64,000 nucleotides of DNA, taken from assembly GCF_017498085.1 (NCBI RefSeq), contig NZ_JAGBKM010000015.1, positions 1-64,000 of the forward strand. The letters run 5' to 3'. Shown here piece after piece: positions 33,894 to 37,121 of this stretch. This DNA is from Psychrobacter coccoides. Its GTDB lineage: Bacteria; Pseudomonadota; Gammaproteobacteria; Pseudomonadales; Moraxellaceae. The translations under genes and the position numbers were made by a program. Each line of letters starts with the position of its first letter. Positions within the stretch are counted from its first letter, which is position 1. A model generated the notes under the pieces. It searched no databases. It was given only the letters and a program-made list of their open reading frames with translations, and was not told where the DNA came from.

Positions 33894-34145
33894 AGCAGTT
33901 TAACCATATGTAGCAGCATTTATTTTGGCATAATATTTTATCTAGGTGAGGTTTTGTGTAAAGTGTGACAAGAAACGTTATATTTATGGGGATAAAAGCT
34001 CGATAAAACAATACCATACCAGTGCTACAAAATAAGGCCCTTAGACTGTCATTAGGGCGTACCCTTGAGTCAATCGATAAACATTTAGATGAGGATATGT
34101 TCTAATAACTCTATAATAAACCATCAAACCGATAAAGAGAGCTCA

Positions 34146-34736
34146 ATGATAGCTGATGACGATAAGCACCCACCAAAACCCACCCTGTTTAGCCGTCTGC
34201 TCCGCTTACTGATCAGAGCGGCGATGCTGCTTGTATTGCTGTTTGTATTGGACAAACTCCTTCCAAGCATCAGCCAACAAACCCAGTCTTTTGTCGTCGC
34301 TAAGTGGCAACAGCTCAGCCTACTACAGCAAGAGTTGCCAACAGAAAACAGCCTGCCCAGCCCATTACCAGGACAGCATCTAACTGATACTTGGGGCGCA
34401 GCACGTAGCCAAGGACGCTCTCACGAAGGCATCGATATCTTTGCCCCTAGAGGTACACCAATACAGTCAACAACGCAAGGCATCGTCAGCAAGGTTGGAG
34501 AGAATACTTTAGGCGGGCGTGTGGTGGTCGTCGTTGGGCCTGGCGGTGCAGGACATTATTATGCGCATTTAGAAGACTATGCGGATATCAGTCCAAACGA
34601 TTGGGTAAATGCCGGCGATATCATCGGTTATGTCGGCGACAGTGGCAACGCTAAAGGCACACCGCCACATGTACATTACGGCGTATATATCAATGGTAGT
34701 GCTGTCAATCCTTATCCACTTTTGCAAAAAGACTAA
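34146..34736 (+). CDS. M23 family metallopeptidase (LytM-like)
   Basis: 196 aa from the ATG at 34146, which is preceded by AGAGAG; the frame is open 19 codons further upstream. A single transmembrane segment at about residues 20-40 ([16 protein letters not shown]) anchors it. The C-terminal peptidase domain has the zinc site motifs [20 protein letters not shown] and the HVHYG ligand pair, so it is predicted active. M23 peptidases cut peptidoglycan peptides or bind division proteins. A monocistronic gene, convergent with phoR, whose stop is three bases away. Confidence 0.88.
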
Positions 34737-34739
34737 ATA

Positions 34740-35822
34740 TCAGAGCGGAGCAGCTGTGCGCACATGACTGATTGGAAACACGGCGCTAAAAGTCGAGCCC
34801 TTGCCTTCTGTAGATTCAATTTGTAAGTTTGCGTCATATTGATACAAGACGTGCTTTACAATCGCCAGCCCTAGTCCTGTACCACCTGTGGCACGGCTGC
34901 GACCTTTATCGATACGATAAAAGCGCTCGGTCAAACGGGCGATATGTTGCGGCTCAATACCGATACCGTCATCCTCAACAGAAAACTGGCAGCCATCAGA
35001 GGTTCTTGCCCAGCTGATCGTTATGTTGCCGCCTTTTGGCGTGTATTTAATCGCATTGATGACCAAGTTCGACAAGGCGCTATTTAAGTACATCTCTGAG
35101 CCATATAAGCCGTCGTAGGTATCTATTTGCAAATGAATACTATGATTGTATTCCGTGTTGTAGGCTTGCGCATCATCGTAAATATGCGTAAGCAGTTTGG
35201 TCATATCTATATAGTGTAGCTCATGCGTCTCTTCTATCTCAATTCGAGACAGCAGCAATAAGTCGTTGACAATCCTATTCATACGCGCTGTCTGCTGGGT
35301 CATCAGCTCAAACCCACGTTGCCAGTGCGGCGGCATATCGGGTTGACCTGAGAAGTTCTCAAGGTAGCCCATCATGACTGTCAATGGGGTGCGCAGCTCA
35401 TGCGAGACATTTGCTACAAAGTCACGGCGCATTTGCTCTAAATGATGCAGGCGCGTCACATCATAGATAATCAATAGCTTTTCGTCACCAAACGGGGTGA
35501 GCTCGCATTTAAGATAACGCTTAGGATCTCGCCAAGATGCCATGTGGACACCATCGTTGGGTTTCGTCATGCTCTGATAGTACTGACGAAATTCAGGCAC
35601 AGTAATAAAATCAAAAATGCACTTGCCTTTATCGTTTGATTGTAACAACAATAAGTCTTCAGCCGCCTGATTCCACCACTCCAAGCTATCATCGTCATTT
35701 AGCAATATCACCGCATCTTGCAGTGCCCGTAATGAGCTTCTGATCTTTTTAAGCTGACCCATTACGTCTTGCTGAGCGACTTGATCTTGCTGCATACCCT
35801 GCTGTTCATTTTCCATAGTCAT
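34740..35822 (-). CDS. phoR: PhoR-type sensor histidine kinase without N-terminal membrane segments
   Basis: 360 aa, partner of PhoB in phosphate-starvation signalling. The match begins at LKKIRSSLRALQDAVIL (the PAS region of E. coli PhoR, about residue 85). It is followed by the phosphoacceptor H141 in NVSHELRTPLT, NLVINAIKYTP (N-box), DDGIGI and GTGLGLAIVKH. The two transmembrane helices normally before the PAS domain are missing and replaced by about 20 Gln-rich residues (MTMENEQQGMQQDQVAQQDV). The start has AAGGATG six bases upstream, so this is a real start, not a truncation artefact. It is separated from phoB by 377 bases of repeats. Confidence 0.88.
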   Translation of the reverse strand: MTMENEQQGMQQDQVAQQDVMGQLKKIRSSLRALQDAVILLNDDDSLEWWNQAAEDLLLLQSNDKGKCIFDFITVPEFRQYYQSMTKPNDGVHMASWRDPKRYLKCELTPFGDEKLLIIYDVTRLHHLEQMRRDFVANVSHELRTPLTVMMGYLENFSGQPDMPPHWQRGFELMTQQTARMNRIVNDLLLLSRIEIEETHELHYIDMTKLLTHIYDDAQAYNTEYNHSIHLQIDTYDGLYGSEMYLNSALSNLVINAIKYTPKGGNITISWARTSDGCQFSVEDDGIGIEPQHIARLTERFYRIDKGRSRATGGTGLGLAIVKHVLYQYDANLQIESTEGKGSTFSAVFPISHVRTAAPL

Positions 35823-35859
35823 CTATCATCCTTACCATTAGTCGCTATAGTCAGTACTG

Positions 35860-36030
35860 GGGCGTGTCCTCAATTCAATCAATCGTCATTTAAATGGGCT
35901 AAAAATGGTTAAATGTTGCCAAACAGCGGCAAATAGCGAGTTAATATCTCGATATTATCAGCGCTATTTTTCTTGTTTGTCTGCCATTTATCTCATTTTT
36001 ATCACCATTTTTAAAATGAGGACACGCCCT
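35860..36030. repeat. 170-bp MITE-like element between phoB and phoR
   Basis: Perfect 13-bp terminal inverted repeats, GGGCGTGTCCTCA at 35860-35872 and its complement at 36017-36029, with inverted similarity running further inward (CATTTAAAT/AAAAATGG blocks). No coding capacity. A clear target-site duplication is not visible. Confidence 0.75.
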
Positions 36031-36150
36031 AAATAAAATCGATACATTATTAATAGTCACGTGCTCCTGGTATAAATTTTACTTGCTTGCTGTGCCTACG
36101 CCGACAGAGGCTGCGCAAAATTTATCTCAGGAGCACTGTATCGTTTTTAT
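36030..36150. repeat. Dispersed Psychrobacter-type repeat, copy 1
   Basis: A sequence matching 59518-59600 over about 83 bases, with 26 identical bases at 36089-36114. This copy folds: GTGCTCCTG (36061) pairs with CAGGAGCAC (36136), and CGATAC (36040) with GTATCG (36143). It abuts the MITE-like element and lies just before the phoR start region. Function unknown; perhaps another small mobile element. Confidence 0.7.
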
Positions 36151-36199
36151 AATGAATCAACTATACGCTGCAAGCCATATACCATTCTGCCAAGCTGCT

Positions 36200-36904
36200 T
36201 TATACGTTTTCAACCAGACTAGAGAAACGATAGCCGGTACCACGCACGGTTTGAATTAAAGTATCGCAGCCATGAGGCTTTAAAAGCTTACGTAAGCGTC
36301 TGATATGGACATCTATGGTCCGATCTTCGATGTAGACATTGCCACCCCATACCTGATCAAGCAGCTGTGTGCGGGTATAAGCACGCTCCGGATGACTCAT
36401 AAAAAACGCCAAGAGACGATATTCTGTTGGGCCAACTTCAATGCTTTTGCCACTTACAGTGACCCGCTGGCTTTTGGGATCGAGGCTCAACTTCCCCACG
36501 TCGATGGACTTATCAGCACTCAGTGCACTACTGCGACGCAAGACGGCTTTGATTCTCGAAATCAGCTCACGTGTTGAAAAAGGCTTGGTCATATAGTCAT
36601 CAGCGCCAGCATCAAGGCCATGAACCTTGCTGTCCTCTTCACTTTTGGCCGTCAGCATGATGACAGGTATCTCAGCGAGCAACTCATCGTTTTTGAGCAT
36701 GCGACAAAAATCAATGCCGCTTTTGTCTCCAGGGAGCATCCAGTCTAGTAAGATAAGCGCAGGACGGTGATCAACCACTTGCTGATGCGCTTCTGAGACA
36801 TCAGTCGCCTGCAAGCTATCAAACCCCGCCATCTCTAAGGTCATGACCACCATCTCACGAATCGCAGGCTCATCTTCAACGATTAAAATCTGCTCATTAT
36901 ACAT
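36200..36904 (-). CDS. phoB: Phosphate regulon response regulator PhoB
   Basis: 234 aa. The receiver domain has the acidic pocket VEDEP and the phosphoacceptor D54 in LLDWMLPG, with the KPFSTREL lysine. The C-terminal winged-helix DNA-binding domain carries IEVGPTEYRLLAFFMSHPERAYTRTQLLDQVWG and RTIDVHIRRLRKLL, close to classical PhoB. Two Pho boxes lie upstream, so it probably activates itself. phoR follows after 377 bases. Cognate pst genes are not in the window. Confidence 0.95.
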   Translation of the reverse strand: MYNEQILIVEDEPAIREMVVMTLEMAGFDSLQATDVSEAHQQVVDHRPALILLDWMLPGDKSGIDFCRMLKNDELLAEIPVIMLTAKSEEDSKVHGLDAGADDYMTKPFSTRELISRIKAVLRRSSALSADKSIDVGKLSLDPKSQRVTVSGKSIEVGPTEYRLLAFFMSHPERAYTRTQLLDQVWGGNVYIEDRTIDVHIRRLRKLLKPHGCDTLIQTVRGTGYRFSSLVENV

Positions 36905-36965
36905 ACAACAACCTTGTTATTACGCACTCTTAAAAGGGTTAAAGGCAAAAAACACCACAGCAATT

Positions 36966-37121
36966 GCCAATCTGAGTCTATTAAACGTCTTAATTATGAC
37001 AGTTTGATGACAATTAGAATCTAATCCATTTTTAGTGATTTATGCCAATCTGAGTCTATTAAACGTCTTAATTATGACAGTTTGATGACAATTAGAATCT
37101 AAACCATTTTTAGTGATTTAA
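36966..37121 (-). promoter_or_regulatory. Tandemly duplicated phoB promoter with two Pho boxes
   Basis: A 78-bp unit (36966-37043) is repeated at 37044-37121 with one mismatch and a few divergent end bases. Read on the minus strand, each copy contains a Pho box, TTGTCAT-CAAA-CTGTCAT (36996-37013 and 37074-37091), and 11 bases later TTAATA as the -10. That is the arrangement of PhoB-activated promoters. phoB starts at 36904. Confidence 0.85.

Follow-up and report, generated by a model that had tools for sequence, protein, structure and literature searches.

A PhoR without predicted membrane helices in most sampled Psychrobacter, and its possible control by PhoU

The phoB-phoR locus of Psychrobacter coccoides

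The stretch analysed here comprises 64,000 nucleotides of contig NZ_JAGBKM010000015.1 of Psychrobacter coccoides (hereafter the window) and carries a phoB-phoR pair on its minus strand. phoR lies directly after phoB, as expected of a PhoR orthologue. The features are as follows:

34740..35822, minus strand: phoR, 360 amino acids, no membrane helices; a linker remnant and PAS region at residues ~1-121, a DHp domain with H141 and a CA domain.
35751..35822, minus strand: codons 1-24 of phoR, a Gln-rich start that is mostly homologous to the linker end in full-length PhoR.
35823..36199, minus strand: phoB-phoR gap of 377 bp, enlarged by two repeats.
35860..36029, strand not set: MITE-like element of 170 bp with 19-bp terminal inverted repeats, from a dispersed family.
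36040..36166, strand not set: second repeat, likewise from a dispersed family, with an inverted repeat inside it (36061-36080 / 36117-36136).
36200..36904, minus strand: phoB, response regulator, 234 amino acids.
36996..37013, minus strand: Pho box, one mismatch against the consensus.
37074..37091, minus strand: second Pho box, identical to the first and the product of a 78-bp tandem duplication.

An open reading frame of 215 residues on the plus strand (34089-34736) converges with phoR and ends 3 bp from it; it is presumably M23 peptidase-like, judging by a motif.

The kinase scores 398.9 bits against TIGR02966 (phoR_proteo, NCBIfam; cut-off 334.2), which identifies it as a PhoR orthologue. 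Against the E. coli-type model NF008235, it reaches 325.1 bits, under that model's cut-off of 390, with residues 10-352 matching model positions 82-424 of 431. Because the match begins at position 82, the front of the model is missing from this PhoR. Positions 1-81 hold two membrane helices (PMC9239213); neither of these two N-terminal helices, typical of the E. coli-type protein, is present here. At E 0.001, Pfam reports HisKA (131-195) and HATPase_c (243-351) and no PAS domain. The PAS region is defined by the PhoR models, by alignment with relatives and by the predicted fold (residues 37-121); both the models and the fold place it before the DHp domain. In the AlphaFold2 model (50 sequences; mean pLDDT 69.9, pTM 0.48), the PAS-like core at 37-121 and the ATPase domain are mostly confident. 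The pLDDT drops under 50 for residues 1-34 and in places within the DHp region, so that the model tells little about the start of the protein. The top fold matches are WalK/VicK-type histidine kinases.

A sequence-only reading of this DNA had predicted that PhoR lacks its membrane segments, and hydropathy bears this out. With Kyte-Doolittle windows of 19 residues, no value above 1.14 occurs anywhere in the 74 short PhoRs of the genus. Their first 80 residues reach at most 1.05 (median 0.66), while the maxima of the 23 long PhoRs, taken over their first 170 residues, are never below 1.51 (median 1.84). A stricter cut of 1.6 finds no segment in three long proteins (L088, L094 and L096), though these have the same N-terminal motif. 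The good ribosome binding site that had been noted at the phoR start is indeed there (AAGGA, 6 nt 5' of the ATG). Immediately 5' of that ATG stands a TAG in the same frame, and helices therefore cannot be gained by starting further upstream; the transmembrane region that such a start might have restored, a possibility raised in the same reading, is thereby ruled out.

Distribution and origin of the short form

Of 105 Psychrobacter genomes searched at E 1e-60, 100 contain a PhoR: 74 are short (356-376 amino acids), 23 are long and carry helices (444-564 amino acids) and three are broken. The latter (G048, G050 and G075, all drafts of 84-86% completeness) were excluded from the trees and the short/long counts, and the short form makes up 74 of the 97 unbroken PhoRs. 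The remaining five genomes yield no PhoR at E 1e-60 and only distant kinases at E 1e-5. One genome (G096) has PstC and PhoU and neither PhoB nor PhoR at the cut-offs used, and in two others (G029, G103) none of PhoB, PhoR, PhoU and PstC exceeds its cut-off. A scan of the contigs assigned all 54 named loci to Psychrobacter. The PhoR of the nearest relative (G016, 96% identical) is equally short. In the family sample, genus included, 177 of 199 genomes have a PhoR at E 1e-60; outside the genus, each of the matches listed has an open frame of at least 430.

A tree of the PhoR core plus PhoB was built from 86 distinct rows (96 before 10 identical rows were merged), with the columns of the lost segment omitted; L090 was excluded, as its stretch contains no phoB. 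The short PhoRs occupy one side of a single branch (bootstrap 100, SH-aLRT 96). A second tree, built from 33 PhoR rows with six PhoRs from other genera as the root, places the short form as derived (100/99), with the helix-bearing PhoRs of G015 and G102 as its sister group. On these gene trees, the helices are shown to have been lost once, in one ancestor of most sampled Psychrobacter.

The length of the missing part can be read from a linker motif, KKIRSS, which is preceded by 108 and 110 residues in the two sister proteins and by 14-36 residues in the short ones (24 here; 73 of 74 scored, the motif being missed in one of 74 short and one of 23 long proteins). The roughly 20 Gln-rich residues that had been taken as a replacement for the helices align with the linker end of full-length relatives (QQDQVAQQDVMGQLKKIRSS here, QQDQLTQQKVMGLVKKIRSS in L068); they are the retained end of the ancestral linker instead. 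The starts of some short PhoRs resemble those of the sister proteins (MITPxEN versus MMTPESN), with 11 of 12 bases alike in five, which suggests an internal in-frame deletion that retained the old start. When the N-terminal tips were compared in a second register, one Met earlier, eight of 51 distinct short N-termini scored at p < 0.05, and the pattern count was 12 of 51 (shuffled mean 1.2, maximum 5); in the first register, which was out of register, three of 51 scored at p < 0.05, with a mean z of -0.16. Since the choice of the second register followed the failure of the first, some rows are related and hence not independent, and the majority have no match, an internal in-frame deletion of ~75-85 codons is a best inference only, as the event that fits the loss best. 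We also searched for the lost segment itself (residues 1-110 of the sister PhoR L072 against the 105 genomes, E 0.01). All 23 long genomes matched within phoR, and a long one (G001) gave an additional weak match. Among the short genomes, the only match is a weak one in P. coccoides (E 0.006, 48 residues, contig C21), and we rejected the idea that the segment is encoded elsewhere.

The gap between phoB and phoR does hold a MITE-like element and a second repeat, as had been described, and these were suggested to be the scar of the event that removed the N-terminus. The comparison of gaps speaks against such an origin of the short PhoR. Both families are dispersed, with at least ~40 matches each in the P. 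coccoides genome. Among 99 phoB-phoR gaps (74 short, 22 long and three broken), the MITE-like element occurs in this genome alone, and the second repeat in three, namely here and, as relatives of the repeat, in two others. Gaps next to a short PhoR have a median of 74 bp and are at most 125 bp long in 61 of 74 cases; that of G016 measures 160 bp and carries neither repeat. As the repeats are this rare and the short form is a single clade, we rejected the scar. By this survey of sequences, the repeats were inserted after the helix loss and are unrelated to it. The refuting condition given along with the scar, that all Psychrobacter PhoRs be this short without repeats, holds in part: short PhoRs without repeats do exist, again contrary to a scar, but 23 PhoRs are full-length.

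Selection on PhoR and its signalling partners

The phospho-acceptor histidine and the ATP-binding residues are kept, with H141, N256 and G314 invariant in all 97 PhoRs, as are 14 positions of the PAS region. We calculated dN/dS for 10 hand-picked pairs, seven short and three long, the PAS value being missing for one short pair. For the PAS region, it ranges from 0.006 to 0.131 in the other six short pairs, compared to 0.013-0.034 in the three long ones. By these ratios, the short PhoR is under purifying selection. The PAS region is on average 0.757 identical within a set of 34 short representatives and 0.708 within the 23 long proteins; linker identity is 0.403 versus 0.585, and the PAS-to-kinase divergence 1.82 versus 1.59. 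Given the higher PAS dN/dS, the higher PAS-to-kinase divergence and the less conserved linker of the short form, some relaxation is possible.

PhoU is present in 100 of the 105 genomes, including 73 of the 74 with a short PhoR (all but G082) and all 23 with a long one; PstC exceeds its cut-off in 102 of 105. P. coccoides itself has one PhoU match (contig C56, 32224-32856) and PstC on the same contig (29026-29898), so that PhoU and Pst genes share a genome with the short PhoR. In G082 (locus L253), a short PhoR and a PstSCAB-like gene set adjoining phoB occur and PhoU was not found; by eye, the gene past the last pst gene resembles a member of an aromatic-degradation cluster. A PhoU tree of 35 of the 100 PhoU genomes (the 30 best matches plus five hand-chosen) distributes the short-PhoR genomes over three deep branches, each of which also contains long-PhoR species, and cuts across the PhoR tree. 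From these mixed branches, it appears that pst-phoU was exchanged, or that older copies were lost in parallel, while the short PhoR stayed. The sharing of PhoU branches by both forms fits a PhoU interface that is independent of the helices. The position of pst-phoU also varies within the genus, near phoB-phoR in some genomes and distant in others (L163-L192, L254, L255 and L257-L259).

Pho boxes were scored against the Pho box consensus. Within 300 bp of phoB, 71 of the 74 short loci and 18 of the 22 long ones have a box with no more than two mismatches, against a background in the window of two in 213 bins of 300 bp. Bare counts are not above chance, neither in the window at two mismatches (3 versus 2.3 expected) nor in the pst region at three mismatches (3 versus 5.6 expected); the weight of the boxes lies in their position and their recurrence across loci. 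In the pst region, a box with one mismatch stands before the gene preceding pstC, which is probably pstS, judging by its place. The 78-bp tandem duplication 5' of phoB (36965-37120, 98% match) doubles the Pho box, and this is the only locus among the 99 with two boxes of at most one mismatch.

Short PhoRs also occur elsewhere in the Gammaproteobacteria. In a sample of the class, 93 of 143 genomes, P. coccoides included, have a PhoR at the cut-off; besides P. coccoides, nine have one with an open frame below 400. One of these (L269) runs up to the edge of its contig and was left out; PhoU is present in its genome. The remaining eight (L263-L268, L270 and L271) adjoin phoB and have retained the PAS region in five cases and lack it in three; the highest hydropathy in their first 130 residues is 0.36-1.38. 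PhoU (TIGR02135) was detected in none of these eight genomes, seven of which are at least 90% complete. This PhoU search covered only the nine short-frame genomes of the class sample and thus sets up no formal association between anchor and PhoU. Judged against these eight, the loss of the anchor with retention of PhoU in Psychrobacter is unusual. Three of the eight (L267, L268 and L271) are kinases of ~250 residues with neither helices nor a PAS domain, in genomes in which PhoU was not detected.

How a soluble PhoR may be controlled

As the sequence-only reading expected, a PhoR without membrane segments would have to receive the Pst/PhoU signal in a way independent of the helices. We consider control of a soluble PhoR by PhoU through the PAS domain the most likely reading, and on balance a probable one, from the comparisons above and by analogy with studied systems. 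After an in-frame deletion of both helices together with the first part of the linker, the PAS, DHp and CA domains would remain, and PhoR would be a working cytosolic kinase/phosphatase. PhoU would still switch it via the PAS domain, towards phosphatase activity under plentiful phosphate, and phosphorylated PhoB would act at the Pho boxes that precede phoB and the pst genes. To carry the signal, PhoU may itself sense phosphate in the cytosol or may tether PhoR to PstB. We propose that the anchor is dispensable because PhoU, and not the helices, carries the signal.

Published work offers several parallels. In E. coli, PhoU acts on the PAS domain of PhoR (PMC4423584), and in Salmonella, a PhoU residue implicated in the PAS contact is needed for repression (PMC9239213). 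SenX3 of M. smegmatis is found in the soluble and not the membrane fraction when its TM domain is removed; this form still controls phoA and pstS by phosphate, while forms without PAS fail (PMC12301784). Nonetheless, the PAS domain alone was insufficient for PhoU interaction in Salmonella (PMC9239213), which counts against PhoU-PAS control. Some weight on the same side comes from G082 and the eight anchor-less PhoRs elsewhere without detected PhoU, and from the possible relaxation of the PAS region.

Where the signal originates is debated: PMC5775613 argues that PhoR and PhoU read the conformational state of the Pst transporter, and PMC11389368 and PMC12301784 argue for a cytosolic phosphate signal. 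A narrower version, in which PhoU senses cytosolic phosphate and switches a free soluble PhoR across the whole clade with no complex at the Pst transporter, is held only tentatively and seems rather doubtful; against cytosolic sensing stands NMR work, cited in PMC5775613, according to which intracellular phosphate in E. coli is constant whatever the state of the regulon. If true, a freely soluble PhoR throughout the clade would be a natural case of a mechanism known to date from an engineered SenX3.

The main rival to PhoU-PAS control, which we judge unlikely, is a deregulated kinase: blind to the Pst/PhoU signal, the short PhoR would act as a near-constant kinase or phosphatase and hold the Pho regulon at a fixed level. 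Reportedly, an N-terminally truncated E. coli PhoR (described by Yamada in 1990) is constitutive, which agrees with deregulation and counts against control by PhoU. Loss of pst or phoU in E. coli likewise leaves PhoR in its kinase-on state (PMC5775613), and the eight anchor-less PhoRs of other lineages without detected PhoU and the slight signs of PAS relaxation point the same way. Yet a deregulated PhoR sits poorly with PhoU in 73 of 74 short-PhoR genomes, with the retained Pho boxes and with a PAS region that is under purifying selection and keeps its 14 positions in 97 of 97 proteins, and the anchor-less SenX3 stays phosphate-regulated (PMC12301784).

A still less probable alternative is that PhoR remains membrane-associated, by an amphipathic stretch near its start or by binding to PhoU-PstB, so that a membrane signalling complex persists without helices. 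The helical hydrophobic moment reaches 0.52 over residues 24-41 (mean hydrophobicity 0.01), and for the 74 short proteins the maximum moment close to the start has a median of 0.48, compared to 0.345 in an inner control stretch. However, a moment of 0.4 together with a positive mean hydrophobicity is reached in just five of the 74, this PhoR among them, and the stretch lies where the PAS region begins, in a conserved part that long relatives possess too, and is thus no new anchor; an amphipathic anchor arising in the short form is not favoured. For the tether, PhoU connects PhoR with PstB in E. coli (PMC4423584), and such a possible tether overlaps with PhoU-PAS control. Finally, that the phoR gene is simply broken or its start miscalled is scarcely conceivable. 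Broken PhoRs do occur in the genus (three of 100, in genomes of 84-86% completeness), but 74 genomes agree on the short form, an in-frame stop lies directly upstream, the catalytic residues are retained, dN/dS is low and, apart from the one weak match in P. coccoides, the search turned up no copy of the lost segment in any short genome.

In a literature search of mostly freely accessible papers, consulted as excerpts and with E. coli deletion studies outside its scope, no natural PhoR without membrane segments was described. Psychrobacter includes close relatives with and without the anchor, with PhoU and Pst in both and PhoU branches common to both forms. Anchor-bearing and anchor-less Psychrobacter hence provide a natural test of membrane versus intracellular phosphate sensing.

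Compared to the E. coli-type membrane PhoR, the Psychrobacter protein is an orthologue by family score with the same place after phoB, the same PAS, DHp and CA domains and a genome with PhoU and Pst genes, but model positions 1-81 have no counterpart in it. The full-length PhoRs of the sister species G015 and G102 (L068 and L072) are 79-81% identical over the shared part and keep the order phoB-phoR; they differ in being ~80 residues longer in front, where their helices lie. The eight anchor-less PhoRs of other lineages also adjoin phoB and lack membrane helices, whereas they come without detected PhoU, three of them without PAS, and Psychrobacter keeps PhoU. The closest parallel in design is SenX3-SD1 of Mycobacterium smegmatis (PMC12301784), likewise a PhoR orthologue with PAS and kinase domains and no TM domain. 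SenX3-SD1 is man-made, its regulation has been measured and two PhoU paralogues accompany it, whereas the Psychrobacter form is natural, known from sequence and accompanied in P. coccoides by one PhoU match.
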